Origin: Roseateles aquatilis
Lineage (GTDB): Bacteria > Pseudomonadota > Gammaproteobacteria > Burkholderiales > Burkholderiaceae_C
Length of the DNA: 64,000 nucleotides
Direction: 5' to 3'
Assembly (NCBI RefSeq): GCF_002205645.1
Contig: NZ_NIOF01000002.1
Span: 372,001-436,000 of the forward strand
Below, piece by piece: positions 1 to 19,213 of this stretch. Each line of letters starts with the position of its first letter. Position 1 is the first letter of the stretch. The notes under the pieces are model-generated. The model had not been told where the DNA came from. It searched no databases and worked only from the letters and a program-made list of their open reading frames with translations. A program made the translations under genes and the position numbers.

Positions 1-870
1 CACCGTGTCGGGGTCGGGTCCGAGGGCATTCAACGCGGGATGCGCCAGTCCAGGCTTCTGGATGAAGGTGGTGGACACGGCGTCGGCATTCAGGCCGAGC
101 TGCGAGGCCATCAGGCGATGGGGGTCCGAGATCGTTCCGGAGTATTGAAGCGCGTCCGCTCCATCCAGCCAGAGCGCCGAGTTCAGTCCGTTCACATTGC
201 CGAAGTCCCTGACCGTCCGATTGACGTCGTCCTGCGAGTGAGCGTATTGCCCCGCCGTCGGCATCCAGCCCAGTCGTGCATCGCCGGGGCGCGGTGCCTG
301 GTACCGGCTGTAGCTGTCCTGCACCGGGAGGGGCGGCGCGGCGATCGATTCAGCGAGCTTGTTGAACTGGGCCTCGCCCCAACTCGTGTGCAGCAACGCG
401 AGATCGGTGGCGAACCCCGAGGCCGTCGGCGTATCGGCGGTTCTCGCGAAGTCGAAGCGTCCGATGGCCGAGATGAGGTCGGTCACTTCCTGGGCGTGCT
501 CGTTCACGGCTTCACGGTCGCTCAAGAGGTCGAGCAGTTGTCGCAACGTCCGCGTGGACGTGTCGACGTTGTGCCCGTTCACCTGGATCGTCGCCCGCTG
601 GACGACGCCGCTCATGGCGCCGGCCTCGGCAGGCATGGCATGGGGCGCGGAGACATCCGATGCCCGCATGGCGTCGAGCTGGCGACGCTGCGCGACCATG
701 CGCGGCGAGCGAGCGACCCATGCCTGGCGTTGCGCGGGGCCGCCCTCGGGCGAGGTGTCGCGCAACGAAGCCGCCGCCTCGCTCTCCGCACCCACGGCCG
801 AAGGTTTCGCCGCCGCGGCTTCCCGAGGCGCGGCTGCTTGGGGCCTGGGCGCTTTCGCTGCTCGTTGCAT
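1..870 (-). CDS. Partial secreted-toxin-like / eCIS-associated protein, runs off left edge
   Basis: A reading frame on the minus strand stays open from an ATG at 870 to base 1 (290 codons) and continues beyond the window. The start has a good GAGGA ribosome site 7 bases upstream. Another in-frame ATG at 954 lacks one. The first 35 residues are Ala/Pro-rich. Around residues 45-95 are segments reading SPRMVAQRRQLDAM and, later, GVVQRA. This 'SPRxVAQRxxLxxM ... VVQR' pattern recurs in proteins with the DUF4157/eCIS-core domain and in cargo-like proteins around them; that link is my inference from the motif. The remaining ~190 residues are acidic and mixed in composition, look like real globular protein, and match no domain I recognise. 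No signal peptide is visible. The C-terminus, where a toxin or core domain would sit, lies outside the window. Confidence 0.6.
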   Translation of the reverse strand, partial: MQRAAKAPRPQAAAPREAAAAKPSAVGAESEAAASLRDTSPEGGPAQRQAWVARSPRMVAQRRQLDAMRASDVSAPHAMPAEAGAMSGVVQRATIQVNGHNVDTSTRTLRQLLDLLSDREAVNEHAQEVTDLISAIGRFDFARTADTPTASGFATDLALLHTSWGEAQFNKLAESIAAPPLPVQDSYSRYQAPRPGDARLGWMPTAGQYAHSQDDVNRTVRDFGNVNGLNSALWLDGADALQYSGTISDPHRLMASQLGLNADAVSTTFIQKPGLAHPALNALGPDPDTV

Positions 871-990
871 CAGAGGGTCCTCGGGCGCCGTGGGATGCCC
901 GAGAGGACATGGCGAGATCCTCGCGTTGTAGCCCCGTTCGCGGCCCCGGGCCATCGGTGGAGTGCTGAATCGGGGCTTCAGGAATTCTTA

Positions 991-1087: not shown

Positions 1088-3910
1088 TCACTGCAGCTTC
1101 ACCGCAAACGTCACATTGCCCGACAAGCCGCTGCCCAGCGTGCCGGTGAACGTCCACTCGATGCGGCCGCTGGCGCCGACCGCGGGTTGCGTCGACACCG
1201 CGCAACTGATCTGCGCGTTCGGCACCGGACCGCAGGCCACGGTCTGCAGGACGGTGTAGGCCGGCGTCGCGTCCTGGATCTTGAGCGTGGCCAACGCCGC
1301 GGTGCTCTGGTTGGTGTATGTGATCGTGTACGTGATGACATCGCCGCTGACGGCCGAGGTCTTGTCCACCGTCTTCACCAGCTTCAGGCCGGTGGCCGCC
1401 GGCTCGCCGACGGTGGTGAGGTCGCTGCGTTGCAGGTCGCGGGTCAGCGCGCTGTTGGCGTAGACGTAGTGCGCGCTCAAGGTGAGCGGCAATTGCGCGC
1501 CGTCGGTCGCGCCGGCCGGCGAGGTGACCTTCACCAGCAGGCACAGCTTCTGATCCGCCACCATCGTGATCGCGCCGCTCACCACCACCTCGCCGGGATC
1601 GATCAGGCCGTTGCAGTTGGCGTCCAGATAGACCAACTGCGTCCAGCCCGGCGTCGCCGGCGCCGACGCGCTCAGCGTCACCGTGCCGCCGGTGCCCGAC
1701 GTGAAACTGTGCGCGTAGACCACCGCGCTGCCCGCCAGGACGCTCTGCTGACCGTCGGGCTGGAGCACGTTGACCGGCACGTCGCCGAAGTTCAGGCCGG
1801 TGTAGACGGTGCCGGCGGTCGGCGTGAAGCTGACGGTCCCGTTGGCCTGCGAGAAGCTGCCGCCGGTCGTGCCCGGCGCACCGGAAACCACCAGCCAGCT
1901 CGCGTCCAGTCCGGCGTGGGCCACCTGGACGGCGCCGCTGGCGGAGGCCGGGATCCAGAGCGTGTAGGTGCCGAGATCGGCGCTGACGGCGCGATCCAGC
2001 AGCGTCGCGCCAGCGTCCGTCGCGGTGATCACGCCGCCGGACAAGGGCGGTTCCGTGCCGTCCCGGATGCCGTTGTTGGCGATGCCGCCGCCCAGGCCGT
2101 TGTCCTTGAAGATCGTGCCGCTGAGCTTGCTGCCGTTGAACAGGCCGAAGCGCTGGTTCGGGACGTCGGCCGTCGACAGCGTGAAGCTGCGCGTCAGCGT
2201 GGGCGCCTCCGTGCCCAGCCAGCCGGCGGGCGTGGCCGGGACCAGGTCGGTGGCCGAGGCCGTTGCGTTGATCACCACCGAGTAACCCGCCGCGGCGACG
2301 CTGGTGAAGCTGAAGGTCCCCGCCGACGGGCTGATCGCCGCCACCGCCACCGCGGGGCCGGCCGGTTGCGTGGCCGGGATCAACTTGGCGTAGAGCGTCA
2401 GCCCGGTGCCGGCTTCGCCGCCGTCGAGCGCGCCGTTGTGGTTGACGTCGCTGTAGACGTTGCCCGACACCGCGCAGGCCATCACCACGCCCTCGGTGCT
2501 GATGTCGGTCTCGCCCAGGCGGATGCCCAGCAGGTTCAGCAGCGGATCGATCAGGCCCGTCACCAGGCTGTTCACCGTCGTGGTCAGCGCCGTCTGCAGG
2601 ATGGGCTTGAGCAGGTTGATCACGCTGGTGACCAGGCCACCCGCAAGACCTGGCCCCAGGTTGACCTGCAGATTCCCGATTAGCGTGCTCACCAGCGTGG
2701 TGGCGAAGCCGGCGTTCGAGTAGACCGTGGCGGTGGGGCTGCCTGGCGTCAGCGTCACGGTGGACGCGCCGACCGCGCTGCCGACGGCGGCGGCCTGCGC
2801 CAGGATGTCCACCGTCAGCGCGCCCACCGACAACTGGCCGATCGTGCCCCAGGTCAGGTCGGAGGCGACGTTGATCGCGTGGTTGCGATTGAAAAAGAGC
2901 GAGTCGCTGATCGTGCCGAGGTACAGCGCCGCCACGCCCGGCGTCGCTTGCACGGTGACCGCGCTGGACAGCGCGTTGATGGCCGTGAGCACGCCGTCGG
3001 TGCGCGCGACCTCCACGTAGACGTCCAGATGCGCGATGCTGGCCGACACCGTGCCGCCGAGCAGGACGTCCAGCACCGACACATTCAGGGCGACCGAGAC
3101 CAGGTCGATGGACAGCTTCACGCGGATCGCCGCCGAGTGGAAGCTGGTCCCGACCGCGCCGCAGTTGATCACCGGCGGCTCGACCACCTGCGCCTGCAGC
3201 GCCACGTTGCCGATCAGCGAGCCCAGGCCCAGGCTGCTGCCGGACAGCGTGATCGGGTTGGGTGTGGTGGCCACGTTGCTGCCGTTGTAGAGCTGGATCA
3301 CGCCGGTCACCAGCTCCAGCGCGTTGATGCGCGTCGTGCCCAGCACGCCGTTGCTCTGCAGCAGTTGGCCCAGCTGGATCGGCGTGCTCAGGCCGTTCAG
3401 CGCGATCGCCAGCGCGTTGAGCGAGGCGGCGAGCTGTGTCCGGCCCTCCGCCGTCGCGCCGGTGGAGGCGGCGGTCAGGATCTGCGCCACCGTGGCGTTG
3501 GCGGTCAGCGTCGATGCCGGCGTCGACGCGTTGACCGACGCCTGCAGCGCGCTGACGGTGCGCAGCAGACTGAGGTCGCCGGTGGCCAGCGTGTTCCAGT
3601 CCAGCACCGTGAGCGTCAGCGTCGAGTTGGTCAGGCCGCCCAGCAGCGCGTTGAGCAACACGCCCTGCGTGGAATTGACGCTCGCCAGGCGCGGGCCGGC
3701 CGAGACGCAGCCCAGGCTGCCGCAGGCGGCCCGCGCGGGGCCGGCGCTCAGCGCCAGCACGAGCATCAACATCAGGGTCAGGCCGATGGAGACCGCGCGC
3801 ATCCAGGCGCGTCGCGGCGGGCGCCGGACCGGACGGAGCAGGGCGATCATCGGCGCGGCCGTCGCGGGGACGGTCCAGGCTGGATCCGGCGGGGTGAAGG
3901 AGGCGTTCAT
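1088..3910 (-). CDS. Secreted DUF11 / SdrD B-like repeat protein
   Basis: This is a 940-residue exported protein. The start ATG at 3910 overlaps the stop of the upstream 1822-residue gene as ATGA, so the two are translationally coupled. An open extension to 4042 lies inside that gene and is rejected. After a ~35-residue basic N-region a hydrophobic stretch (about 40-60) ends in AGPARA, a likely signal-peptidase site. The first ~450 residues of mature protein are a Ser/Thr/Ala/Leu/Val-rich region. Then come two SdrD B-like modules (DVNHNGALDGGE and DNGLGGG...NNGIRDGTE) and a segment with another Ca-loop-like motif (DANCNGLIDPGE). A C-terminal DUF11 domain starts near LKLVKTVDKTSAVSGD. There is no LPXTG, no barrel and no ATPase. 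The likely role is a surface or matrix protein. Function is unknown. Confidence 0.85.
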   Translation of the reverse strand: MNASFTPPDPAWTVPATAAPMIALLRPVRRPPRRAWMRAVSIGLTLMLMLVLALSAGPARAACGSLGCVSAGPRLASVNSTQGVLLNALLGGLTNSTLTLTVLDWNTLATGDLSLLRTVSALQASVNASTPASTLTANATVAQILTAASTGATAEGRTQLAASLNALAIALNGLSTPIQLGQLLQSNGVLGTTRINALELVTGVIQLYNGSNVATTPNPITLSGSSLGLGSLIGNVALQAQVVEPPVINCGAVGTSFHSAAIRVKLSIDLVSVALNVSVLDVLLGGTVSASIAHLDVYVEVARTDGVLTAINALSSAVTVQATPGVAALYLGTISDSLFFNRNHAINVASDLTWGTIGQLSVGALTVDILAQAAAVGSAVGASTVTLTPGSPTATVYSNAGFATTLVSTLIGNLQVNLGPGLAGGLVTSVINLLKPILQTALTTTVNSLVTGLIDPLLNLLGIRLGETDISTEGVVMACAVSGNVYSDVNHNGALDGGEAGTGLTLYAKLIPATQPAGPAVAVAAISPSAGTFSFTSVAAAGYSVVINATASATDLVPATPAGWLGTEAPTLTRSFTLSTADVPNQRFGLFNGSKLSGTIFKDNGLGGGIANNGIRDGTEPPLSGGVITATDAGATLLDRAVSADLGTYTLWIPASASGAVQVAHAGLDASWLVVSGAPGTTGGSFSQANGTVSFTPTAGTVYTGLNFGDVPVNVLQPDGQQSVLAGSAVVYAHSFTSGTGGTVTLSASAPATPGWTQLVYLDANCNGLIDPGEVVVSGAITMVADQKLCLLVKVTSPAGATDGAQLPLTLSAHYVYANSALTRDLQRSDLTTVGEPAATGLKLVKTVDKTSAVSGDVITYTITYTNQSTAALATLKIQDATPAYTVLQTVACGPVPNAQISCAVSTQPAVGASGRIEWTFTGTLGSGLSGNVTFAVKLQ

Positions 3911-6900
3911 GAGTTCAGGCGCGAGAACAACGTCTCGTCGAATTTGAAGCGCAGCCGCAGATAGACGCCGCGGGCCGTCGCGTTGTCGGCGCTCAGGTCG
4001 CGGTCCTTGAAGCCGCGGACGTTGTAGCCGACGGAGATCCACAGGTTGTCCTTGGCGCGATAACCGACCTCCGCGCCCAGCGAGGTCTGGCGGCTGCGCA
4101 GCCGCGCGTCGCCCATCACGCTGGCGGAGGCGCCGACGTCCCAGCGCTCGCCCAGGTCCCGGGTGACGCGCATGCTGGCGAGCTGCGCCGTGGTGCGCTG
4201 GCGCATGCCGCCGAAGGCTTCCTCGACCAGCTTGGCGGCGTAGCGCCCGGTGACCGCGACGCCCTGGCCGACCTGACGCTCCGCATGCACGCTGACGATG
4301 TGGGCCCGGCGCGAGTCCACGTCCCCCAGCGTGCCGCGCTCGTCCTTGTATTCATAACGGCCCAGCGCGTTGAGGCGGTTGTCCGCGCCGCGGTAGGCGG
4401 CGCCCAGCTGCAGGCGTTCCTGCCAGCGGTCGGGCTGCCGGTTCCCGTGCGCCAGCGTGCCGGCCAGCACGTTCTTGCCCAGCAGGGTCCATTGGTCGTC
4501 GAGCTTGTAGGCCAGCCCCAGGGTGGACAGCAGACCGGTGCTGCCAGCGCCTTCCCGCACTTCCAGGCGGGCGGTGCCCTTCCAGCGCGGGTCGGCGGTG
4601 TATTCGACGCCCGCGGTGGCGGCGCTGCTCTGGTTCTCGCCGGTGCCGCCGCGCAGCGCCTGGACGCGCTCCAGGCTCGCGTTCAGGCGCAGGCCGGGCC
4701 GCACCAGCCACTGGTTGCGCAGGCCGATGGCGGCCTCCGTCTCGCGGCCGGAGAAGGCCTCGCGGCCGCGGTACTCGCTGAACACGCGGCCCTCGCCGCC
4801 GACCACGGTGGTGCCCGCGTCCACGCCCAGTACGGTGGTGTTGTGGCGCACCGTCGGGTCCAGCGAATAGGGGCCGGTGAGGGACGACACCAGCTCGTGC
4901 CGCAGGTAGACGCGGCCGCGGCCCGCCACCTGGTAGTCGCCGCCGACGGCGAGCAGGTGCTTGTCGGAATCGCGCACGTCCTGCTCGCCCTCGATGAACA
5001 CCGACGCCTGCGGCAGCCCCGGCACCGGCGTGCTGAACTTGCCGCGCACGCTGGTGGTGGTGCCGCCCTGGATGCCCAGGCTGTTGCCCTGATCGTCGGT
5101 GGTGGCGCCGGGATGGTCGTTGAGGTCCTTGACGTGGCGCACCCCGAGCTCGACCTTGGCGCCGCTCTCCAGGCTGCGCTCCACGCCGACCAGCACGCCC
5201 AGTCGGCGCGCGCCGCTGGCGACATCGGCCGTGTACAGCGCCTCGCCGGTCAGCCGGGTGCGCTCATCGACGCGGTAGCTGGCCTGCGCGCCGCCTTCCG
5301 CGCGGCCGCTGTTGATGAGGGCGGAGCGATTGTCGAAACCCACGTCGCTGCGCGCCGCATGCACCCGCGCCTTCAGGTCCTGGCCGTCGTGCGTCAGCGC
5401 GAAGCGCTCGGCATTGCCGGCGTGCGCGGCGGTGCCGTCGACGGCGGACGCGTCGCGGTCGATGCGGGCGACCTCGGCGACCAGCGCGGTGCGCTCGCCC
5501 AGCGCGACCTTGGCGTTGGCGCTGCCCATGCGCATCGGCGCCAGCGGATTCCAGTCCTTCACCAGGGAGCCGCCCACCTGCACGGACTCGGTGGCCTGCC
5601 ATTGCGCGTCGACGCCGGCCACCCAGAAGGACGGGCCGCCTTGCTCGACCTCGTAGGTCACGCGGATGGAGATCGGGTTGAGGTCGGCGTCGACGCTGGG
5701 CACCGGCGCGCGGAACAGCAGGCGGCCGGTCAGCGGCTCCAGGTCGTAGTCGGTGAAGCGGTCCTTGGGCGTGGTGCTGATGATCAGCGCCGGCTGGTTG
5801 CGGTCCCGCACCAGCAGCTCCACCTTCTCGCTGTTGGGCACCAGGCCGACGCCGAGGGCATAGGGGCCGGAGGTGCCGTCGCCGCGCAGCTCGACGATGT
5901 TCTGACGCGTGCTGTCGCGGGCGGCGAAGGCGTTGGCGCTCAGGCCGCCGATCTGCAGGTGGTGCTTCAGGCCGTTGAGGCTGCGCTGGTAGGTGCCGAG
6001 CTGGCGGATCGGGTCGTCGCTCTGCGTCGTGTAGTCGCCGTACAGCAGCCAGGACTGCTTGCGGTCGATGCGCGCGTACAGGCGGCCGGTGGACTGGGCA
6101 TCGAAGCTGCGCGCCGACGAATCGCCGTAGACGGGGTAGAAGGCGTCGGGCTGGATGTCGCGGAACAGCCGCTGGTTGCCGTCCTTGTCGGAGTCGTAGA
6201 CGAGCGTCAGCAGCGTGTCCTGGTACACCTCGCCCTTGACGAACACGGCGCCGCGGCCGTCCGCGCCCTTCTTGTCGCCGGCGAAGGCGCGCAATTGATC
6301 GTCGAAGCCGTCGTCCCCGGAGGACGTGCCGTTGCCCCGGACGCGGCGCAGGTTGACCACGGCATCGATCACGCCGACGGCGATCAGCGGACGCAGCGCG
6401 GCGGCCACCGCGACACGGGTCTCGGCGCGGACGCCGTCCACGGCGACACGCAGCAGGGCGTCGCCGGGCACGTCGGGCGCCTTCCAGGCCAGTTCCACCG
6501 TGCCGCCCTCGACGAAGCCTTGCACGTCCGGCAGGCGCGGGTCCAGATCGTCCACGCCCCATCGGCCCGGCCCGGCCAAGGTCACCGGCAGGCGTGAGGT
6601 GACGGGCAGGCCGCGCTCATCCTCGAAGCGCAGCCGCACCGCCGCGGTGGCGCCGGCCTCCACCGATTCCGGCGCGACGATGACGATGCGCGCCAGCGCG
6701 CCGGCCAGCAGTACCGTCGCCTCCCGCGTGGCACGCAACTGGCCGAAGGCGTCGTGCTCGGTCAGGGTCAGCCGGTTTTCGCCGGGGCGCAGCGGCAGGC
6801 CGAGGTAGGTCCGGGTCTCGGTCTGGTCGTCGATGGACCGGGTGCGCTCGCCGATCTTGGCGTCGCCCACCGGTTCGCCGTTGACGCTGAGCGTCAGCGT

Positions 6901-9375
6901 CGTGCCCAGGTGCCCCGCCAGCTTCACCGGCGGGGCCGGCGAAGGCAGCACCTGGCCGTCGCGCAGGCCGATGAAATGCGGCAAGGGGCCGTTGTCGCTC
7001 ATCGCGTTCGAGGTCGCCGCTTCCGCAGCCGGCGCCACGGGAGACGTCGCGACCAGGACAGCAGCCGAAGACGACTTGGAGGAAATCGACGATGCCGGTG
7101 CCGGTGCCGGTGCAGAGGCAGAGGCAGAGGCAGAGGCAGAGGCGGCTGTGGGTGCAGGCGCAGGCGCAGGCGCAACAGCCGCTGCAGGCACGGGAGCAGG
7201 AGCCTCGGTGCCAGGCGTGACCGCGATCGGGGTCGGCGTGATGACGGCGGCCCGGCTGGTGGCCGCGGCGGCCAGCGCGGCCACCGCCGCGTCGACGGGC
7301 GGGGCGGCGAGATTGGCCGAGGCCGAGGGGGCGGTGATCGGCATGTCCGCCGCGCTCATGGCGCCGATCGACTGCCTCGATCCCATGGCACTCGTGGACC
7401 CCATGGACCCGAACGGCCCCATCGATCCCATCGACCCCATCGCCATCGACCCGAACGACGCGGCCGATCCGAGCGACCCCGCCAGGCCGGGCGAGCCGAT
7501 CGAGCCGGTGATCCCGGCGGCTCCGCCGAAGCCGCCGAGGCCGCCGGACGTCGGCGCATCGCCGAGCCGGCCGCTGGCGGGCAGGGCGCGGACGTCGGAC
7601 GCGATGGCGGTGGCGGTCGGCGACAGCGCGGTGCGCAGCGTGCCGGTGATCTCATCCCCTTGCTGACCGGCCGTCGCCACGCGCAATCGCACCTCGTCCC
7701 GCAGCGCGGGCGAGCAGCCGCCGAGGGCGAAATCGGCGCGTTGCAGCTCGCCCGGCGTCAGGTCGACGAAGCGGCTGCGGCCGTCGCCCGCATGGCGATG
7801 CGAGATCGCCAGCGGCGTGGCGCCGGCGGGCAGCGTGACCGGATCCAGCTTGAGCACATGCGTGCGCGGGCTCAGCCCGTACAGGCTGTAGCGGCCGGCG
7901 CCGTCGGTGACGACCGAGGTGCCGTCCTCCATCCACAGCCGCACGCCGGGGATGCCGGGCTCGTCCGCGTCCTTGACGCCGTTGGCGTCGCAGTCCGCGT
8001 AGACGGTGCCCATGACGATGGCGCGGTCCGAGAACACGCCCGCCTCGACCTTCACCTTGGCGGTGGCCAGGTTGCTGGTGATGGTCTCCGGCGCCTGCGC
8101 GAACGCCTGCGCGCGGTTGATGCCGTCCCCCTGCATCGCGCCCGTGCCGATGCGCACGCGGTAACGCAGCGTGTGGGCCACGGCGGCGGGCAGGCTGTCG
8201 ATGAGCGGCCACTCCAGGCGCGGGCCGGCGCTGCCCGTCGGATCCGCCACCGCCTTGCCGTCCAGCCGCGAGGTGCCGGGCACGTAGCGGAAGCCCAGCG
8301 GCAGCCGGTCCTGCAACCGGACGGCGGTCAGGGCCTGCTGCCCGACGTTCTTCACCGTCACGACGTATTCGAGCGTCTCCGCCACCTCGGCGACGGTGCG
8401 CGAGGCCGTCTTCTGCACCGACAGGCCGCGCGGCAGGGGATCGAGCGGCACGTTCACGATCACGGCGTTGGTCTGCGCGCCGACCGTGAAGACCGCGCCG
8501 AACGAGGCCGGCACCGTGGCATAGGTGAAGTTGCGCGCCGCGCCGTTGGCGACCTGCGCGGCGGGGAAGCCGTAGCCGTCGACGGGGCGCACCACCAGCC
8601 GGTAGTCGCCCGCGACCAGGAACGGAAAGACGTAGCCCCCGTCCGCGTCGGTGACGAGGCTGCCGGACATCGGCGTCACGCCGTCGGCCTGGAACACCAC
8701 CGCCGGGCCGCCGGGGTTGCCGCCGTTGCTGTTGCCGCTGACGTCGATCAGCTGCACCAGCTCGCCGGCCAGCGGCCGGCCGCTGCCGGCGTCGAACACG
8801 AAGGCGCGCGCCTCGATGCGCAGCGAGGCGCGCATCGTCTGGCCGGTGCAGTCGGGCGCGCTCGCTTCGACCATGTCGCCGGGCAGCACGTCCAGCGCGT
8901 CGGCGTTGGGCGGATTGTTGGGGGTCCACAGGCGCGCGATGACGTCGTCCTTCAACTCGAACATGCCCGTGTTGGGCGCCGTCTCGATGGCGGTGAACTG
9001 CTTGGTCTGCTGCGCCTGCACCGAGTGCATCGTCACGGACAGCGTCTCGCGGACCAGCGGATCGACGTTGCAGGCGCTGGCGCGCAGCCGCGGGAACATC
9101 AGCTTGCCGGGGCTGGACATCCACATCCGCGTGTTGGCGGTGTCGCTGGAGAAGAAGCCCAGCGTGGGCACGGCCTCCGGGGTCATGGCCTCGACGCGGT
9201 TGGACATCGTCGTGACCGTGATGCCGGTGACCGGGTCGGTGTAGCTCAAGCGGGCCTGCGCCAGGATCTCCAGCATGACCTCGTCCGCCCGCGCCGGCGA
9301 CAGGCCCAGCAGCCCCAGCAGCAGGACCAGGAGCGCGCACAGGCGCGTCGGCAGGCGATGAGGGGTGGGCGACAT
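3907..9375 (-). CDS. Giant outer-membrane protein with DUF11, SdrD-like domain and C-terminal beta-barrel
   Basis: This 1822-residue protein has a clear Sec signal peptide (hydrophobic 13-28, cleavage near SPARA-D). In order I see: a region with conserved Cys; a carboxypeptidase-regulatory-like module at ~190-290 (FDAGSGRPLAGELVQL); a DUF11 domain at ~320-440 (SVQKTASRTVAEVAETLEY); and an SdrD B-like module at ~455-540 (DCDANGVKDADEPG). Next is a long Ala/Ser/Pro and Gly-Ser-Met low-complexity linker (~600-800). From about 1000 onward the protein has many alternating amphipathic strands, including YPVYGDSSARSFDAQ, and ends in strands finishing KFDETLFSRLNS. I read this as an outer-membrane beta-barrel that anchors the extended N-terminal part. 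It is the third gene of the DUF11 operon. An anchor or export channel for the neighbouring DUF11 proteins is possible but unproven. Confidence 0.85.
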   Translation of the reverse strand: MSPTPHRLPTRLCALLVLLLGLLGLSPARADEVMLEILAQARLSYTDPVTGITVTTMSNRVEAMTPEAVPTLGFFSSDTANTRMWMSSPGKLMFPRLRASACNVDPLVRETLSVTMHSVQAQQTKQFTAIETAPNTGMFELKDDVIARLWTPNNPPNADALDVLPGDMVEASAPDCTGQTMRASLRIEARAFVFDAGSGRPLAGELVQLIDVSGNSNGGNPGGPAVVFQADGVTPMSGSLVTDADGGYVFPFLVAGDYRLVVRPVDGYGFPAAQVANGAARNFTYATVPASFGAVFTVGAQTNAVIVNVPLDPLPRGLSVQKTASRTVAEVAETLEYVVTVKNVGQQALTAVRLQDRLPLGFRYVPGTSRLDGKAVADPTGSAGPRLEWPLIDSLPAAVAHTLRYRVRIGTGAMQGDGINRAQAFAQAPETITSNLATAKVKVEAGVFSDRAIVMGTVYADCDANGVKDADEPGIPGVRLWMEDGTSVVTDGAGRYSLYGLSPRTHVLKLDPVTLPAGATPLAISHRHAGDGRSRFVDLTPGELQRADFALGGCSPALRDEVRLRVATAGQQGDEITGTLRTALSPTATAIASDVRALPASGRLGDAPTSGGLGGFGGAAGITGSIGSPGLAGSLGSAASFGSMAMGSMGSMGPFGSMGSTSAMGSRQSIGAMSAADMPITAPSASANLAAPPVDAAVAALAAAATSRAAVITPTPIAVTPGTEAPAPVPAAAVAPAPAPAPTAASASASASASAPAPAPASSISSKSSSAAVLVATSPVAPAAEAATSNAMSDNGPLPHFIGLRDGQVLPSPAPPVKLAGHLGTTLTLSVNGEPVGDAKIGERTRSIDDQTETRTYLGLPLRPGENRLTLTEHDAFGQLRATREATVLLAGALARIVIVAPESVEAGATAAVRLRFEDERGLPVTSRLPVTLAGPGRWGVDDLDPRLPDVQGFVEGGTVELAWKAPDVPGDALLRVAVDGVRAETRVAVAAALRPLIAVGVIDAVVNLRRVRGNGTSSGDDGFDDQLRAFAGDKKGADGRGAVFVKGEVYQDTLLTLVYDSDKDGNQRLFRDIQPDAFYPVYGDSSARSFDAQSTGRLYARIDRKQSWLLYGDYTTQSDDPIRQLGTYQRSLNGLKHHLQIGGLSANAFAARDSTRQNIVELRGDGTSGPYALGVGLVPNSEKVELLVRDRNQPALIISTTPKDRFTDYDLEPLTGRLLFRAPVPSVDADLNPISIRVTYEVEQGGPSFWVAGVDAQWQATESVQVGGSLVKDWNPLAPMRMGSANAKVALGERTALVAEVARIDRDASAVDGTAAHAGNAERFALTHDGQDLKARVHAARSDVGFDNRSALINSGRAEGGAQASYRVDERTRLTGEALYTADVASGARRLGVLVGVERSLESGAKVELGVRHVKDLNDHPGATTDDQGNSLGIQGGTTTSVRGKFSTPVPGLPQASVFIEGEQDVRDSDKHLLAVGGDYQVAGRGRVYLRHELVSSLTGPYSLDPTVRHNTTVLGVDAGTTVVGGEGRVFSEYRGREAFSGRETEAAIGLRNQWLVRPGLRLNASLERVQALRGGTGENQSSAATAGVEYTADPRWKGTARLEVREGAGSTGLLSTLGLAYKLDDQWTLLGKNVLAGTLAHGNRQPDRWQERLQLGAAYRGADNRLNALGRYEYKDERGTLGDVDSRRAHIVSVHAERQVGQGVAVTGRYAAKLVEEAFGGMRQRTTAQLASMRVTRDLGERWDVGASASVMGDARLRSRQTSLGAEVGYRAKDNLWISVGYNVRGFKDRDLSADNATARGVYLRLRFKFDETLFSRLNS
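7094..7141. repeat. Hexanucleotide microsatellite in the low-complexity linker
   Basis: Three copies of GCCGGT are followed directly by five copies of GCAGAG. The unit is 6 bases, so copy-number changes stay in frame and only lengthen or shorten an Ala/Ser or Ala/Pro dipeptide tract in the linker of the giant outer-membrane protein. Confidence 0.9.
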
Positions 9376-9480
9376 GATCGAGACAGCGTGGTGGCGGAGG
9401 TCGTCGATGGGCGGGGCGATGTCGGCGGTGGGCGTCGGCGTGGATGAAGGTCGTCAATCAGGTCGAAGGGCGAGGGCAGG

Positions 9481-9518
9481 GCTCCGCCCGCCGCGGCTCG
9501 AAAGCCGCGCGGTGGAGC
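9481..9518 (-). promoter_or_regulatory. Strong hairpin between two DUF11 genes
   Basis: GCTCC..CCG.CGCGGCT, a CGAA loop, then AGCCGCG.CGG.GGAGC forms a long GC stem inside the 167-base gap between the 866-residue and 1822-residue genes. No U-run follows on the minus strand, so I favour an attenuator, mRNA-processing or stability element over a true terminator. It could set different expression levels for the two halves of the operon. Confidence 0.5.
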
Positions 9519-9542
9519 GGGATCGGCGGGGAGGCGTGGGCG

Positions 9543-12143
9543 TCAGGGGTCGATGCGCACGCCGAAGCGCAGCACGACCGAGGCCCCCGCGGCGAGCGAC
9601 GCGACCGTGGTCTGCACCGTGCCGCGGGCCCCGTTGGCCGGCGCGGTCACCGTGCCGGCGGTGGCCGAGGCCGGCACGGTCGCGCTGTAGGTCGTGTAGA
9701 TCGGCGTCGAATCGCTGACGACGACGTTGGTCACGGCCACCGGCCCGACGTTGGTGGCGGTGATCTCGTAGCGCAGGCAGCCGCCGGGGGCCGCGCCGGT
9801 CAGGATCGCCACCGGCGAGAACGCCGTATCGGCGATGCCGTCGCAGCCGGCGTCCAGCGCCTGCGTCTTCACCAGCGTGACCTGCGAACTGATCACCGCG
9901 CTGGTGTCGGTGGCGACCGCGGCCGCCGGCGGCGCGGCGCCGCCGTTGGTGCCGGTCAACGTGACGGTCAGCGTGGTGATGTCGGACGCGCCGGTGACGG
10001 CGGCGGCCGGCGAGGTCACCTTCACGAAGAGCCGCACGCTCTCGCCCGGCGACAGGCCGGCCGCGGTGCTGGCGCCGTTGGTGCCGCCGACCAGTTGCGA
10101 CAGGTCGGTGATGACCGGGTCGTTGGGGTCCAGCACGCCGTCGTTGTTCTTGTCCCAGTAGACGACCGAGGTGAAGCCGGTGGTCGAGTCGCTGGTGGAC
10201 AGCGTGCCGGTGCTGGCCACCGCGTCGCCCTCCAGCACGTTGCCGACATTGGTCAGCGTGTGGGTGTAGATGGCGCCGCCGCCGGGGGTGAGCTGGGCGG
10301 TGTTGTTGGGCGTGATCACCAGGCCGCGCACGGTGCCGACGGCGACGGCGTCGTGCAGCGTGTCGGTGGCGCCGGTGGTGGGCGACTTGGCGTTGAAGTA
10401 CAGCTGCGTGGTCGCGGCCGCCGCGTTGGCCGGCACGGTGACGTCGGCATAAACCGTCTTGTTGGTCCCCGCGGCGACGACGCCGGTGTTGCTGATCACC
10501 GCGCCGGTGCTGTCGTGGAAGACCACGGTCCAGCCGGTCGGCAGCACGGTGGTGGCGAAGGTGGGGTCGGTGCTGGCGCTCAGGGCGAAGGTGTCGGCCA
10601 CCGTCGCGCCGTTGGCCGCCACCAGCGTGACGCGGGTGGTGCCGCCCGGGGCCACGGTGACGGTGGCGGCGGGCGAGGCCTCCGGCCCCGCGCCGTAGCC
10701 GGGCGCGCCCGGACCCGCGGCGTTGTTGGTCAGGTCCACGGTGCTGGTGCTGATCGCCGTCAGCGTGTTGGTGGCCGTGCCGCTCTTGGTCGGGTCCAGG
10801 CCCGAGGTGCCCTTGACCACGACGTTGAACGGACCGCCGGTGGCGGACGTCGGCAGGATCGCGCGCACCACGACGTTGACCGACGCGCCGGCCGCCAGCG
10901 GCCCGGTGTCGGGCGTGCCGTTGCCGTTGTGGTCCACCATCGGCGTGACGCCGTCGGCCAGGAAGAACTGGAAGGTCGTGCCGGGCGGGAAGGTCGAGCT
11001 GAGCACGCTCAGGTCGATGGTGTCGGTGGCATTGCCGCCGTTGGTGACGGTGTCGGTGAAGTTGACGACGCCGCCCTGCGGCGCGCTCGGCGCGGTGCCG
11101 CCCGTCAGGCTGACCTGGGCGCTGGCCACCACCGTGTACTGCGCGGTGTTGGTGTTGCTGGCCGCGATGTTGACGGAGCCGTCGTTGTAGCTGAAGACGC
11201 CGGTGGTGGCGGTGGCCGCGTTGGCGCCGGCCGGCAGGTTGGCGTTGATGTTGACCTGGTAGCTCAGCGTGCCGCTGGCGCCCGGCGGCACCGATGCGAT
11301 CACCGCGTTGACGCGGTTGGCGGTGGTGACGTTCCAGTCATAGACGATGCCGCCCTGGTTGTCGGTGTTGTCGGCGTCCGAGAGCACGGTGGACCCGGTG
11401 ACGCTCCAGCGCCCGCTGCCGGCGACGTAGGTCATGCCGCTGGGCACCGCCTCGGCCAGGATCACGTTGACCGCGGTGGTGTTGCCGGTGTTGGTGTACG
11501 TCAGCGTGACGGTGCGCGCCGAGGTGGACGGCGACGGCCCGCTGGTGACGTCCAGCGCCTGGGTCACGTTGATCACGGCCTGCGCGGTGACGGTGGTGTT
11601 GTCCGTGACGCTGGCGCTGGTGGAGGCGTTGAAGCCGCTGGTGGCGGTGGCGATCAACGCGTTGGTCGTGCCGGCCACGGCGGTGCCGGGCACGACGCCG
11701 GCGACGACGAAGCGGAAGGTCTGCCCCGCCGCCAGCTGGCCGGTGCTGGTGATGGGCGTGGTGTTGTCCGGCACGCCGTCGCCGTTGGCATCGGCATAGA
11801 AGAGCGTGCTGGAAAAAACAAAGCCACCGGAGTTGGTGGCTGAGAGCGCGAAGGTGTCGGTGCCGTTGCCGGTGTTGGTCAGTGTCTGCGGAAAGTAGAC
11901 CTGGCCGCCCACTGAGACGGTTTTGTTGCCCGGCGCGGTGAGGCTCACGCTGGCCACCTGCTGCACCGTGGTGGAGACGGTGTTGGAGGTGACGGTGCGC
12001 ACGACGGAAGTGCCGTCGGCATAGGTGGCGGCGGCCTGGTTGCCGATGACAGTGCCGGCCGGCGCGGCGGCGAACGCGGTCATGGACACCAGCATGAGGG
12101 CGAGCGCGACCACGCCCGCCAGAAGGCGGAGGATGTTTTTCAT
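9543..12143 (-). CDS. Secreted multi-repeat DUF11 protein
   Basis: This 866-residue protein has a textbook signal peptide (MKNILRLLAGVVALALMLVS, cleavage after AFA). The mature protein is a chain of immunoglobulin-like repeats of ~110-130 residues, rich in Thr/Val/Asn/Gly, with recurring TNTGN, DTFAL and VTNGGN phrases. These are typical of DUF11 and alpha-galactosidase-NEW3-like modules. Calcium-loop-like motifs recur (DANGDGVPDN, DKNNDGVLDPND, DHNGNGTPD), as in extracellular Ca-stabilised repeats. The C-terminal ~120 residues are a typical DUF11 domain starting VTLVKTQALDAG. There is no barrel and no anchor sequence. It lies 27 bases after the 184-residue gene and is almost certainly co-transcribed. 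The likely role is a structural surface or biofilm protein. Confidence 0.85.
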   Translation of the reverse strand: MKNILRLLAGVVALALMLVSMTAFAAAPAGTVIGNQAAATYADGTSVVRTVTSNTVSTTVQQVASVSLTAPGNKTVSVGGQVYFPQTLTNTGNGTDTFALSATNSGGFVFSSTLFYADANGDGVPDNTTPITSTGQLAAGQTFRFVVAGVVPGTAVAGTTNALIATATSGFNASTSASVTDNTTVTAQAVINVTQALDVTSGPSPSTSARTVTLTYTNTGNTTAVNVILAEAVPSGMTYVAGSGRWSVTGSTVLSDADNTDNQGGIVYDWNVTTANRVNAVIASVPPGASGTLSYQVNINANLPAGANAATATTGVFSYNDGSVNIAASNTNTAQYTVVASAQVSLTGGTAPSAPQGGVVNFTDTVTNGGNATDTIDLSVLSSTFPPGTTFQFFLADGVTPMVDHNGNGTPDTGPLAAGASVNVVVRAILPTSATGGPFNVVVKGTSGLDPTKSGTATNTLTAISTSTVDLTNNAAGPGAPGYGAGPEASPAATVTVAPGGTTRVTLVAANGATVADTFALSASTDPTFATTVLPTGWTVVFHDSTGAVISNTGVVAAGTNKTVYADVTVPANAAAATTQLYFNAKSPTTGATDTLHDAVAVGTVRGLVITPNNTAQLTPGGGAIYTHTLTNVGNVLEGDAVASTGTLSTSDSTTGFTSVVYWDKNNDGVLDPNDPVITDLSQLVGGTNGASTAAGLSPGESVRLFVKVTSPAAAVTGASDITTLTVTLTGTNGGAAPPAAAVATDTSAVISSQVTLVKTQALDAGCDGIADTAFSPVAILTGAAPGGCLRYEITATNVGPVAVTNVVVSDSTPIYTTYSATVPASATAGTVTAPANGARGTVQTTVASLAAGASVVLRFGVRIDP

Positions 12144-12170
12144 GACGATGCTGAGGTGGCGATCGGTGGA

Positions 12171-12725
12171 TTACGGGCGGCCGACGCCGACCAGCGGCGG
12201 CAGCTGCATGCGGGCACGCACCGTGCGCTCCGCGCCGGCGGGCAGGTCACCCAGTTGCCATCGCAGATAGCGGTACTCCGACAGGGGTACCGGCTCGACG
12301 GCGACGTGGCCGTCGGCCCGTCGCACTTCGCGTTTCAAGGGGATGGGATCGAAGCGTCGCCCGTCGAGGCTGGCCCAGCGGGCCCGGGACGGCAGCGTGT
12401 CCAGGCTCGTGAGCTCCAGGCCGCCGGCCGGCACGGGCAAGGTCAGCTGCACGTTGCTGACGGGCCTGGCGGTGGTGTTGATGTAGCGGGCCTCGTACTC
12501 GACGACGTCGCCGGGGCGGACGTCCTTGAGGGGCTGCAGGCGCTCCTGCACCCGGGCCTGTTCAACGACGGTCTGTACCAGCCACGCTTGCAGGCGCACT
12601 TCCGCCTGGGGTGGGGGATCCGCGGCGACGGCGGGCGACATGGCCAGCGTCAGGGCGGCGAAGAGGGACAGCGTCAGAATCAAGACGAGCAGACGCCCGC
12701 CGACCGAGAACGATCGAGATGACAT
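12171..12725 (-). CDS. Small exported DUF11-like protein, first gene of the surface-protein operon
   Basis: This 184-residue protein starts with an N-terminal hydrophobic signal (about 11-35, cleavage near AVAA). The remainder is one DUF11-like beta-sandwich, with motifs VRPGDVVEYEARYINTT and LRWQLGDLPAGAERTVRARM. A strong ribosome site (AAGGGAG, 6 bases before ATG) supports the start. As the first gene in the operon and a single-domain protein, it could be a periplasmic chaperone or assembly factor for the larger DUF11 proteins, or a minor subunit; the sequence does not decide. No metal or catalytic motif is visible. Confidence 0.8.
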   Translation of the reverse strand: MSSRSFSVGGRLLVLILTLSLFAALTLAMSPAVAADPPPQAEVRLQAWLVQTVVEQARVQERLQPLKDVRPGDVVEYEARYINTTARPVSNVQLTLPVPAGGLELTSLDTLPSRARWASLDGRRFDPIPLKREVRRADGHVAVEPVPLSEYRYLRWQLGDLPAGAERTVRARMQLPPLVGVGRP

Positions 12726-13020: not shown

Positions 13021-14795
<1,775 letters not shown>

Positions 14796-14799
<4 letters not shown>

Positions 14800-17700
14800 G
14801 TGCGTTGTCCTTGGCCGGCGCGGCGGCCCGTCCAGGCGCGGACGCGGTGTTCGAGGGCGTCGATCAGCTGATAGATCAGCGGCACGAAGATCAGGCTGAG
14901 CAGCGTGCTGGTGAGCAGTCCGCCGATCACGGCGATGGCCATCGGCGCGCGGAAGCCGTCGTCGTTGCCCCAGCCCAGCGCCGCCGGCAGCATGCCGCCG
15001 GCCATCGCCAGCGTCGTCATCACGATCGGGCGCATGCGGTCGCGGCCGGCGTCCAGGATCGCCTGCCCGCGCGCGGTGCCGGCGCGGCGCGCCGCCACGA
15101 TGAAGTCCACCAGCAGGATCGAGTTCTTGCTCACGATGCCCAGCAGCATCAGCAGCCCGATCACCGTGGACAGGTTGAGCGAATGGCCCGTCATCAGCAG
15201 CCCCGCCGCCGCGCCGCTGAGCGACAGCGGCAACGCGACCATGATGGTCAGCGGCTGCAACCAGTCGTCAAACAGCAGCACCAGCACCGCATACACCGCG
15301 ACGAGCCCGGCCAGCGCGGCGATGGCGAACTGCGTGAACATCTCGTCCATGTACTCGGACTCGCCGTAGGCGGCCTGGCGCACCTCGGGCGGCAGCGCCT
15401 GGAAGGCGGGCAGCGCCTGCACCGCCTCCATCGCCTGCCCGAGCGTGGCGGGGCCCACCAGGTTGGCCTGCAGCTGGATCTGGCGCTCGCGGTTCAGGCG
15501 GCTCAGCGAGGACGGCACGCTGCCGTGCGCGAAGGTCGCCACCGCGCCCAGCGCCACGGTGCCGCCGCTCGCGGTGGCCACCGGCAGCTGGCGCAACTGG
15601 TCCAGGCTCAGCGCCTTGCCGCCAGCCAGGCGGGCGCGCAGCATCAGCGGGCGACCGTCGACGGGCACGCGCGTCAGCGCCGTGTCGAGGTCGGACAGCG
15701 TGGCCAGCCTCAGCACATCGGCCACCGCGCTGGTGGTCACGCCCAGGCGGGCCGCCTCGTCCGCGAGCAGGCGCACGTCGACGGTCGTCACGCGCGGCCC
15801 CTGCGAGAGCGCCACGTCGGTGAGCATCGGCAGCTCGCGCGCCTGCACCAGCAACCGCGCCATCGCGGCCTCCAGCGCGTCGACGTCGCGCGAGACGAAG
15901 CTCAGGTTGACCTCCTTGCCGCCGTCGCCCAGCAGCAGCGTCGCCCGCAGATCGGGCACGCGCGTCAGTCGCGCGCGCACCCGCTGTTCGAGCTCGGCCT
16001 GCGACAGCACGCGGTCGCCGAGCGGTGGCAGCAGGATCAGCAGGCCGCCCAGCTCGGCGCTGCCGCGGTCCTGCGCGAACACGCCCTGCACATCAGGCAC
16101 GTCCTGCAGCTCGCGCCGCAACGCTTCGGCCGCCCGCACGCCGTCGGCCAACGTGGCGCCCGGCGGCAGCTCGTATTGCGCCTGCAGCGACAGCGGCCGG
16201 GTCTTGGGCATGAAGCCCGTAGGCACCTGGTCCAGCAGCACTGCGGTGGTCACCAGCACGGCGGCGCCCGCCGCCAGCGTCCGCGCCGGATGGGCCAGCA
16301 CGCGACCCAGCAGCCGCAGGTACAGCGCCTCGGCGCGCCCGCTCCCGCCGTGGTGCCCGGCCGACGCCGGCTTCAACCACCGGGCGCACATCAGCGGCGT
16401 CATCAATCGCGCCACCACCAGCGACGAGATCACGGCGAAGGTGGTGGTCAGGCCGAACTCGGTGAAGTACTTGCCGACGACGCCGCCGATGAAGCTCACC
16501 GGCAGGAACACCGCGACGATGGTGGCCGTGATGGCGATCACCGCCAGGCCCAGCGAGTCCGCGCCGACCGAGGCGGCCACCCGCGGCGCGTCGCCCGCCT
16601 GGATGCGGCGCTCGATGTTCTCGATCTCGACGATGGCGTCGTCGACCAGGATGCCGATGACGAGGATCAACGCCAGCAGCGTCACCGCGTCGAGCTGGAA
16701 GCCCTTCAGCTGCATGACCAGGAAGGTGGGCAGCAGCGACAGCGGGATGGCCGCCGCGGCGATCCAGGTGGCGCGCGTGTTGCGCAGGAAGCCCCAGATC
16801 ACCAGCACCGTCAGCAGCGCGCCCTCCAGCAGCATGTCGCGCGCGCCGGCGAAGCTCAGGCGCGTGTCCTGCACGCCGTCGTCGAAGAGCTCGAAGCGCA
16901 CGCCGGGATGCCTTGCCTCGGCGCGCGCGAGCGCCGCCGCCACGCCGTCGGCCAGGGCGATCTCGGATGCGCCGCGCTTCTTGTAGAGCTCCAGCGCCAC
17001 GCCCGGCTCGCCGTTCAGCAGCGCGTAGCCGCGCGGCTCGGAGGCGACGTCGATGACGCGCCCCAGCTCGCCCAGCGTGAGGGTGCGGCCGGTGGCCAGC
17101 GTCAGCGGTCGCCGCGCCAGTTGGGCGGCGTCGGCGCTGGCGCCCATCACGCGCACCGGCAACTGCTGGCCGGCGGCGTTGGCGGCGGTGCCGCCGGGGA
17201 TGTCGGCCTCGGCCAGGCGCAATTGCCGCAGCACGTCGGCGACCGACAGGCCCGCGGCGGCCATGCGCGCCGGATCCAGCTCCAGCCGCAGCTCGCGCAC
17301 CGTGCCGCCGACGCGCTTGAACTGCTGCACGCCGGGAACGCCCAGCAGCGACGGCCCGACCTCCTCGTCGACGAGTCGGCCGAGCTGCGCCTCGTCCAGC
17401 GTGTCCGATCGCACCATGTAGCGCTGCAGCGCGCCGCCGCTGACGTCCACCCGGTTGACCACCGGCTCGCCGATGTTGCCCGGCAGCTCGGGCCGCACCT
17501 GCGCGACGGCGTCGCGCACGTCGCTGACGGCGCGGTCGATGTCGGCGTCGAGCTGGAACTCGGCGACCAGTTGCACGTCGCCGCCGGTGATCGTCGTCGT
17601 CAGGTGCTTGACGCCGGAGATGCCGGCCACCGCTTCCTCCAGGCGACGCGCGACGTGGACTTCGAGTTCCCGCGGCGAGGCGCCCGGCTGAGCGACGCCG

Positions 17701-17846
17701 ACGCTGACGATGGGCAGCTCCACGCGGGGGTTGCCGGCGATGGGCAACTGCCCGTAGGCCAGCAGCCCGGCCAGCGACAGCAGCAGGAACAGCAGCAGGA
17801 CGGGCGTCGGGTGCTCGATCGCCCAGGTGGAGATCTTGAGTTTCAT
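14796..17846 (-). CDS. RND-family multidrug efflux pump, inner-membrane subunit
   Basis: This is a 1016-residue AcrB/MexF-type proton-driven transporter. It opens with MKLKISTWAIEHPTPVLLLF, the usual cytosolic tail and first membrane helix. It has twelve predicted helices with two large periplasmic loops. TM4 carries the paired acidic residues of the proton relay (GILVDDAIVEIEN, about residues 395-410), and a GLLMLLGIVSKN motif follows the second loop. The ATG at 17846 overlaps the membrane-fusion gene stop (ATGA); the reading frame extends further upstream, but only inside that gene. Its substrate cannot be read from sequence. A NarL-type two-component system diverges from this operon and is a candidate regulator. 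Confidence 0.93.
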
Positions 17847-19213
17847 GTCCTCGGTGCCTCCAGGCGGATGCGGCTGACGGCCGGGGGGCGCACCGGCTCG
17901 ATGACCTGGCCGGGGCTGAGCAGCGCGGCGGCGGCCCGCACCACGGTGTCTCCGGCCGCGAGGCCGCCCAGCACGACGGCGCCGTCCTCCGACAGCGCGA
18001 CGCGCCGCTTGGCGACGCGGTGGCCGGCCTCGACGACGTACACCCAGGGCTCCGGGTCGAACTGCAGCGCGGTGGCCGGCACCGGCCATCCGGCGACGGG
18101 CGCGCCGCGGACGGTCGCGGTGGCGGTCGTGCCCAGCGCGGGCGGCGGCGCATCGGGCGGCCAGGCGTCGGGCAGGGCGACGCGCACGCGGCCCCGGCGG
18201 CTGTCGTCGGCCAGCGCCTCGTCGATGGCGCGGACCTTCCCGCGCACCGTCAGCGGCACCACCGAGCCGGTGGGCGTCAGCGTCACGTCGACCGCGTCGC
18301 CCACGCGCAGGCCGGCGAGGCGGCTGCCGTCGACCCAGGCCTCGAACTCGCGATCGCCGCGACGTGCCAGCTTGAACAACGGGCCGGCCGCGGCGTCGGT
18401 CACGGTGCCGACCTCGACCCGGCGCTCGCTCACGATGCCGGCCACGGTGGCGCGCAGCACGCCGTCGCGTTCGCGTTCGTCGGCCAGTTGCAGCGCCGCC
18501 CGGGCCGCGGCCAGATCGGCCTGCGCCGCGGCCAGCGCCTGCGCGGTCGCGTCGCGCTCGGCCATCGCCTGCTCCAGCTGCGTGCGCCGCTGGCGGTGCT
18601 CGATCTCGCTGACGGCACCACCGCCGGCCACCGCGGCGAAGCGACGGGCCTCGTCCTCGGCGCCGCGCCAGCGTGATTCGGCCTGCATCTGCTGCGCGCG
18701 GGCGACGGCCACCTGCGCCACGGCGCGCAGGCGCTGCTGCTCCGCCTGTTGCCGCTCGCCGCGCAGCGCGCGCGCATCCAGCCGCACCAGCGGCTGGCCG
18801 ACGGTCACGGCCTGGCCGGCCTCGACGAACACGTGCTCGACGCGCAGGCCCTCGTGCCGGGCATGGATCAGCACGGGCTCGCGGGCGACGACGCGGCCCA
18901 CGAGCTCGACCGTGCGGTCCCGCGTGCCGGGCTCGACGCGAAACACCTGCACCTTCATCGCGCCGGGGCCCTGCGGCATGGCGCCGGGTCGGCCATCGCA
19001 GGCGGTGAGCAGCGCCGCCGCGCTCACGGCGGCGGCGATCAGCAGCAGGGGCGGTGGGATCCAGGGACGGGACGGGCGCGACGGCCCCGACGGTCGTGAC
19101 GGCGGCGCGGAAGGCGCCGGAGTCGATGGACGCGGCGGACGCGGGAAGGGCGATGCGGGGCCGCGTGGCGGCGTGACGACGGGCGCGAAGTAGGAGAAGG
19201 CGGGCAAGGGCAT
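17843..19213 (-). CDS. RND efflux membrane-fusion (periplasmic adaptor) lipoprotein
   Basis: This HlyD/AcrA-type adaptor has 456 residues from the ATG at 19213, which has an AGGAAG ribosome site. A GTG at 19261 is possible. The barrel-sandwich part begins MKVQVFRVEPGTRDRTVELVG and is interrupted by a coiled-coil hairpin (about 160-235, Ala/Glu/Arg-rich). Lipoyl and beta-barrel domains follow. The oddity is the N-terminus: about 50 Pro/Ser/Arg-rich residues precede the hydrophobic core and lipobox (AAALLTACDG). Lipoprotein signals normally start within ~10 residues, and no in-frame ATG, GTG or TTG lies nearer. It is the first gene of the operon, with ATGA coupling to the pump. Confidence 0.9.
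   Translation of the reverse strand: MPLPAFSYFAPVVTPPRGPASPFPRPPRPSTPAPSAPPSRPSGPSRPSRPWIPPPLLLIAAAVSAAALLTACDGRPGAMPQGPGAMKVQVFRVEPGTRDRTVELVGRVVAREPVLIHARHEGLRVEHVFVEAGQAVTVGQPLVRLDARALRGERQQAEQQRLRAVAQVAVARAQQMQAESRWRGAEDEARRFAAVAGGGAVSEIEHRQRRTQLEQAMAERDATAQALAAAQADLAAARAALQLADERERDGVLRATVAGIVSERRVEVGTVTDAAAGPLFKLARRGDREFEAWVDGSRLAGLRVGDAVDVTLTPTGSVVPLTVRGKVRAIDEALADDSRRGRVRVALPDAWPPDAPPPALGTTATATVRGAPVAGWPVPATALQFDPEPWVYVVEAGHRVAKRRVALSEDGAVVLGGLAAGDTVVRAAAALLSPGQVIEPVRPPAVSRIRLEAPRT

Follow-up and report, generated by a model that had tools for sequence, protein, structure and literature searches.

What could four adjacent genes for DUF11- and SdrD_B-containing proteins build on a bacterium with an outer membrane, and what would hold the product together in a genome in which no sortase is found? 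The question is raised by a locus of Roseateles aquatilis (assembly GCF_002205645.1, contig NZ_NIOF01000002.1, positions 372,001 to 436,000); this whole stretch of 64,000 nucleotides is referred to as the window, and four contiguous, co-directional open reading frames on its minus strand are designated A, B, C and D. The order of these genes, the complementary half-domains at the ends of their products and the conservation of particular residues are seen directly in the sequence, and from them we infer polymerisation, its polarity, a bond between subunits and the roles of A and D. The locus probably makes a surface fibre that would assemble itself head to tail and would probably be locked by self-formed lysine-asparagine (Lys-Asn) bonds, without a sortase. 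A more specific reading, which we favour with greater reserve, is that of a natural tag/catcher fibre of outer-membrane bacteria (Proteobacteria and Deinococcota), in which split CLIPPER domains would provide the joints and Lys-Asn bonds the welds, with neither sortase nor usher, and in which A, a dead copy of the acceptor, would act as a chaperone or cap.

12171-12725, minus strand: gene A, 184 amino acids, a secreted single-domain DUF11-like protein
9543-12143, minus strand: gene B, 866 amino acids, the proposed repeating subunit
3907-9375, minus strand: gene C, 1822 amino acids, the proposed base, with strand pair, stalk domains, linker, immunoglobulin (Ig)-like domain and barrel
1088-3910, minus strand: gene D, 940 amino acids, the proposed tip, with head, SdrD_B domain and acceptor

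The genes are separated by 27 nucleotides (A-B) and 167 nucleotides (B-C), and the ATG start codon of D overlaps the stop codon of C by 4 nucleotides; a longer D frame, from 4042, runs into C. A signal-peptide-like stretch is recognised by eye at the N-terminus of all four proteins. The Pfam cut-off of DUF11 (PF01345), 24.6 bits, is exceeded by B with 28.2, by C with 42.7 and by D with 26.6, the only three DUF11 matches in the genome of 6.4 megabases; SdrD_B exceeds its cut-off in C and D, and CarboxypepD_reg in C. The four-gene DUF11/SdrD locus described in an earlier note on this DNA is thereby confirmed. Its description of A as a small DUF11 protein is right at a distance: A matches TIGR01451 with E=0.008 and reaches the cut-off of no Pfam family (best DUF3857, 17.2 of 24.6 bits). 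The recurring calcium-loop-like motifs that it mentioned are found, by eye, as repeated D-x-N-x-D/N-G stretches in B, C and D. Its statement that neither a sortase nor a secretion ATPase is linked also holds, as the sortase family PF04203 has no match genome-wide (the working control gave matches in 3 of 14 genomes) and a Pfam scan of A to D finds no secretion ATPase among the four genes. An LPXTG-type end with its tail is absent from B and D, both of which end in a strand. A promoter scan of the locus gave no promoter-like site; nine terminator-like sites were found (3.8 expected), none of them in the gaps between the four genes.

Complementary ends of the proteins

In the complete DUF11 domain of C, the strand TLRYRVRIG is followed by a loop and then by two further strands of the form iNxAxA...SNxAxxxVxV. 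B of the window ends in VVLRFGVRIDP and a stop codon, immediately past the first of these strands, and D and A end alike. Following its signal peptide, B begins with APAGTVIGNQAAATYADGTSVVRTVTSNTVSTTV, a sequence shaped like the strand pair that is missing at its other end; C also begins with a strand pair and ends in the barrel, while D and A begin without one. The parts in question are the following:

9546..9878, minus strand: acceptor of B, residues ~756-866, a DUF11 domain without its last two strands, with Lys759 and aspartate (Asp) 811
1091..1387, minus strand: acceptor of D, at the C-terminus, with Lys and Asp
11952..12068, minus strand: strand pair (hairpin) of B, residues ~26-64, at the mature N-terminus, with the proposed isopeptide Asn35
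9184..9288, minus strand: strand pair of C, residues ~30-64, at the mature N-terminus, with alanine at the Asn position
8041..8424, minus strand: complete DUF11 (CLIPPER) domain of C, residues 318-445, adjoining the SdrD_B domain 457-510
2462..3730, minus strand: head of D, without a Pfam family

The Pfam DUF11 match of window B extends to position 83 of 114, 3 residues short of the chain end, and so does that of the D protein of locus L010, whereas the domain of C reaches 107. Among the relatives, a profile of 149 positions was built from 13 complete DUF11 domains of giant single-chain proteins that use the same barrel, with matches accepted to E=1 (that of B in L006 stands at 0.08). By this profile the last domain stops at 94-99 of 149, no more than 4 residues short of the chain end, for 18 B proteins of 23, for 9 D proteins of 11 and for 0 of 12 giants; in the remaining five B and two D proteins the match stops early, yet the same final strand is recognised by eye.

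The converse holds at the N-termini. A strand-pair profile made from 22 N-termini, one row of which is wrong and one badly cut, matches N-terminally in 20 of 23 B proteins (10 of the 20 outside the profile) and in all 21 scored C proteins (9 outside it), those of L033 and of the cyanobacterial L015 being excluded from the C count and L047 being excluded as a shorter copy of L049. The three B proteins that are missed have an incomplete N-terminal end, at a contig edge in L008, in a B gene in pieces in L013 and in a broken frame in L076. The same profile finds no N-terminal strand pair in 11 D or 20 A proteins, and none in the giants, whose N-terminus is visible in 7 of 12 and one of which has a weak inner match. 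In L033 (6900-7160, genome G078) the C strand pair lies in a different frame from the rest of C, through a frameshift of either the gene or the assembly.

When tails and strand pairs are joined in silico, the match to the giants' profile grows from 94-97 (46 for D of L013) to 134-141 of 149 positions, and shuffled strand pairs equal the real score in 0-5 of 200 trials for each of 16 tails. Inside chains, the strand-pair profile has 17 matches at E<=1, most of them weak; nine of these include the strand with the Asn and follow, by eye, B's final strand, as in LRFRVRIANGLPAGTLITNTAQ of L040 (E=0.07). The reverse search with the strand-pair profile and the joined test with the giants' profile were the informative ones.

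These ends suggest a fibre in which B would be the repeating subunit, its N-terminal strand pair completing the acceptor of a neighbouring B, head to tail. D would form the tip, with an acceptor completed by the strand pair of a B and with a head, different between loci, where B and C have their strand pair; C would form the base, its strand pair completing the last acceptor (of B or D) and its barrel sitting in the outer membrane, where it is a candidate channel for the crossing of B and D. The A protein resembles a single acceptor domain that lacks the conserved catalytic residues; it would probably shield the strand pairs in the periplasm or cap them. As the chain ends meet in a loop, such a fibre would equal a giant stalk nicked once per subunit. 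If D is the tip, variable heads are expected: those of the window, L033, L034 and L010 are related, and different ones occur in L035, L067, L070 (with GEVED and P-domain), L013 and the Deinococcota. The split terminal domains, which the earlier note had not seen, would give the parts distinct roles and a mechanism of joining; its proposal of a surface fibre that anchors itself, the barrel serving as scaffold, gains support from the recurring gene order and the complementary termini, and the product may instead be a matrix, the alternative that it named.

The same ends could be read as those of ordinary fibrillar adhesins, that is, three independent secreted DUF11 proteins, one of them anchored by a barrel, with the odd termini a matter of local domain variation. 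DUF11 and SdrD_B are described as common stalk domains in the excerpted texts of PMC12617251 and PMC9210967, and single-chain giants do use the same barrel. However, the split falls at the same place in B and D as in the strand pairs of B and C, the Lys and Asp are invariant, and all this extends over Proteobacteria and Deinococcota and is not seen in the giants; we consider this reading very improbable. In another reading, the strand pair of B would complete its own C-terminal domain, closing B into a ring or compact monomer, and the products would be separate surface or periplasmic proteins. Self-closure is made possible by the presence of both halves in B alone, but a C with only a strand pair (21 of 21 scored) and a D with only an acceptor (11 of 11) need a partner chain, and the genes A to D are kept together across phyla; it seems to us extremely improbable.

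Residues of the proposed isopeptide bond

In the solved CLIPPER domain 9IFR of the Protein Data Bank (PDB), the isopeptide bond involves Lys 715, Asp 748 and Asn 806, according to the excerpted text of PMC12617251. The strand-pair Asn aligns with the isopeptide Asn of 9IFR, and the aligned Asp counts one residue further on than the published Asp 748. In one alignment, every one of the 34 acceptors (23 from B, 11 from D) carries both Lys and Asp, those of Thermus and Deinococcus among them; 16 of the 34 come from loci not used before, among them all three Deinococcota, the other 18 had shown both residues in an earlier comparison too, and a profile alignment likewise gives Asp in 34 of 34. In the profile alignment all 20 B strand pairs carry the Asn, as do 18 of the 21 of C. 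The three residues of the CLIPPER bond are present but split between chains, with the Asn absent from window C. If another chain supplies the Asn, it becomes intelligible that an acceptor should keep Lys and Asp yet lack an Asn; the acceptor Lys, helped by the Asp, would then probably bond to the Asn of the incoming strand pair and lock the joint covalently.

Two simpler statements on the Lys were dropped: that A never has it at the acceptor position (some A proteins do) and that B has it only in the terminal domain (the consensus shows one in an inner domain too). Many B acceptors also have two cysteines that flank an insert after the isopeptide Lys (residues ~760-790 in window B), absent from L010 and perhaps forming a disulphide.

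Several observations weigh against the locked fibre, for which all support is drawn from sequence. The count of Lys depends on the one alignment, as the profile alignment leaves most Lys unaligned and has an arginine in D of L074. The Asn of the C strand pair is replaced by alanine in the window, valine in L049 and serine in L076, and by alanine in L033 (by eye, in the other frame); with no Asn in the strand pair of window C, the base joint, that to C, would be non-covalent. The cyanobacterial C protein left out of the count (L015) gave no strand-pair match. In the joined test the score changes by -0.8 to +12.6 bits, without gain for L003 and L006, and random inner pieces of B reach the joined score in 0-23 of 200 trials, a strict control since B itself contains such strand pairs; with a second profile, the count for shuffles is 0-61 of 200. 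In the first test, that of 23 N-termini against a membrane-proximal DUF11 profile, 16 of 23 did no better than shuffles (>5 of 200), B and C of the window among them. B could, moreover, close on itself; the relatives are homologues and not independent events; and the role proposed for A, chaperone or cap, is drawn by analogy.

Strand complementation could also hold the subunits by itself, with no covalent bond between them and with Lys, Asp and Asn retained for packing or as relics. Chaperone-usher pili and TasA are strand-complemented fibres without such a bond. The strand pairs of C in the window, L033, L049 and L076 keep the hairpin without the Asn, and bond-free fibres of this kind also include the archaeal bundling pili in the excerpted text of PMC9715654. 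Conservation argues for the covalent lock instead: Lys and Asp are found in each of the 34 acceptors lacking an Asn of their own and Asn in each of the 20 B strand pairs, whereas A, with the same truncation, has D in the Asp column in just 1 of 20 (14 have another residue and five are unaligned, window A among these). A fibre free of covalent bonds between its subunits is in our view unlikely, though to be reckoned with.

The probable barrel and the relatives of the locus

The fibre locked by Lys-Asn bonds would be anchored by the second half of C, which comprises:

6931..7608, minus strand: low-complexity linker of C (Gly/Ser/Met/Ala/Pro), between stalk and barrel, by eye
3910..6900, minus strand: Ig-like domain and probable large outer-membrane beta-barrel of C, the barrel at ~3931-6228

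The linker marks the approximate site of the gene break in relatives in which C is split. From about residue 826 onwards no Pfam barrel family exceeds its cut-off (DUF2490, 19.2 of 29.8 bits); neither the autotransporter barrel (PF03797) nor the POTRA and TpsB barrel of two-partner secretion has a match in C at E<=1, and the estimated barrel region greatly exceeds 12 strands in length. An alignment of 12 sequences, the window included (L006 and L008 are incomplete), contains the Ig-like domain, conserved motifs around FYPVYGDSS and a conserved terminal strand, RLRFKFDExLF; Big_1 scores below cut-off in the Ig-like domain of three relatives. On a scale that favours tryptophan and tyrosine, the alignment average has 32 strong amphipathic peaks after residue 1055, where 200 shuffles give 17.4 +/- 3.1. 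A more stringent threshold yields 26 peaks (shuffles, 10.4), and more lenient ones yield 36 (shuffles, 26.2) and 39 (shuffles, 34.7). The family profile has a weak porin match (E=6e-4) and its Ig part a match to invasin (E=0.012). The C-terminal part of C is thus probably a large outer-membrane barrel; the peaks, the terminal strand and the porin match support, without proving, the barrel that the earlier note had suspected.

The gene order that the same note had taken for an operon recurs in other genera, with D missing in some loci. A-B-C-D is found in the window, L033, L034, L035, L067 and L010 (a contig of a metagenome-assembled genome (MAG) labelled Gracilimonas), and plasmids of Deinococcota carry C as a stalk gene plus a barrel gene (Thermus brockianus, L073; Deinococcus sp. 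QL22; D. ficus). A-B-C without a visible D is seen in L002, L003, L006, L014, L049 and L069, of which L006 ends within C, L002 ~1.2 kilobases after C and L069 near a contig end. A relative of A is present in 20 of 23 loci of the A-B-C type and was not found in L008, whose contig begins inside B, L071 and L076. L013 has B in pieces and an OmpA gene before D; in this plasmid of Acinetobacter haemolyticus (5602-8947), B is broken up into several short frames, with the A, C, OmpA and D genes next to it open. L070 has D upstream and two B-like genes; in L068, A and C are accompanied by two B-like genes, and after the second of these the frame is cut by the end of the stretch. In both L068 and L070 the two B-like proteins carry both halves and are encoded one on either side of C, which possibly makes for a mixed fibre.

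In terms of distribution, the B query matched 7 of 274 genomes of the class, R. aquatilis included; among the six others the barrel is present in five, on the contig of B in four, and the sixth matches B weakly only. With the barrel as query, matches came from 3 of 16 genomes of the genus (one distant) and from 23 of 100 of the family (some weak), R. aquatilis being counted in both. Among viral contigs, 52 pattern matches yielded no relative of the barrel.

The same barrel is also found with giant single-chain stalks, which show no split ends. A separate barrel gene follows a stalk gene rich in SdrD_B and DUF11 in L004 (a Rhodoferax MAG), L005, L007 (Stenotrophomonas nitritireducens), L009 (a Methylotenera MAG) and the genomes behind L037, L038 and L039; the stalk proteins that are complete in their stretch measure ~2400-3850 amino acids, and the barrel-proximal part of the stalk (DUF11 and SdrD_B) is matched in the relatives that have a stalk. 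In L011 the barrel gene lacks a preceding stalk gene, and in L012 giant stalk and barrel are fused in one chain. An OmpA-type gene follows the barrel in L004, L005, L007, L009, L011, L012 and the genomes behind L037, L038 and L039, and in L010 an OmpA-type match follows the barrel within the same chain. Such pairings and fusions suggest a single complex of stalk, barrel and OmpA-type domain. In the window no OmpA gene follows C, and the best matches elsewhere in the genome cover the OmpA domain only.

The separate barrel proteins of L004, L005, L007, L009 and L011 have ~1100-1200 amino acids and an N-terminal domain that weakly resembles Big_1; the three that were scanned match no barrel model of Pfam. 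That of L016 is annotated as an OmpA family protein, yet is unmatched by OmpA queries; more distant barrel relatives on plasmids are annotated as TonB-dependent receptor or OmpA family protein. Around the locus, a TolC-like outer-membrane protein and a resistance-nodulation-division (RND)-type efflux pump (13021-18089, minus strand, by eye) lie upstream, ~300 nucleotides from A, in the same orientation. The gene after D (1-954, minus strand) is cut by the window edge and has no Pfam or NCBIfam family above cut-off in its 318 visible amino acids.

Known fibres and the meaning of a possible split joint

Fibres held by strand complementation, stalks with isopeptide bonds and tag/catcher pairs made by engineering all have precedents. 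Sortase-assembled pili of Gram-positive bacteria are covalent fibres with a tip, a repeat unit, an anchor and many isopeptide domains, and to our knowledge the known covalent bacterial pili are made by sortases; unlike these, B and D carry no LPXTG-type end and are encoded in a genome without a sortase match. In engineered tag/catcher systems such as SpyTag/SpyCatcher, an isopeptide domain is split into halves that bond spontaneously. These are designed from intact domains, whereas the split is here natural and located at protein ends.

A parallel in gene content is offered by chaperone-usher pili, in which the genes for tip, repeat unit, outer-membrane barrel and a small Ig-like helper likewise lie together. 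In type 1 and P pili, incomplete Ig-like subunits are completed by the N-terminal strand of the next subunit (see also the excerpted text of PMC9715654). By comparison, the donor in the proposed fibre is a two-strand hairpin that would complete a DUF11 domain, the joint contains isopeptide residues, and barrel and basal subunit are one chain; the usher and PapD-type chaperone families have no Pfam match at E<=1 in A to D. As excerpted in PMC9715654, the archaeal thread Saci_0406 of Sulfolobus acidocaldarius shares head-to-tail complementation, an apparent isopeptide bond between subunits, the lack of a sortase and a putative cap protein beside the subunit. In the same excerpts, Asn57 is bonded to Asp24 of the subunit two places further on, through the alpha-amino group of the latter residue, and the archaeal subunit has a single domain, with no outer membrane or barrel; the two are compared by mechanism only. 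CLIPPER adhesins, such as B9T28_05395 of Acinetobacter silvestris (9IFR), belong to the same domain family with Lys, Asp and Asn at the same places, but in the excerpted text of PMC12617251 the bond lies within one chain, the adhesin is monomeric and split domains are not mentioned. Cargo of the type 11 secretion system (T11SS) was set aside, since DUF11 appears there only among architectures with DUF1194 (excerpts of PMC12282271), as were the F-ENA spore fibres, which have a different fold (excerpts of PMC11952670).

A search of open-access papers, with bioRxiv preprints not included and few subscription papers among them, turned up no account of the four-gene locus, nor of CLIPPER domains that are split by nature or serve as joints of a fibre; the joint chemistry would be new within head-to-tail strand-complemented fibres. 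If the locked fibre is real, a natural split isopeptide domain serving as fibre joint would constitute a further route to a covalent fibre and would explain the conserved operons of DUF11 proteins. It would also supply new tag/catcher pairs, including pairs from Thermus, and each step can be tested with short purified fragments. Lastly, a family of large proteins, probable outer-membrane barrels for which Pfam has no model, would gain a function; they go with single-chain stalks in some bacteria and, as proposed, with multi-chain stalks in others.

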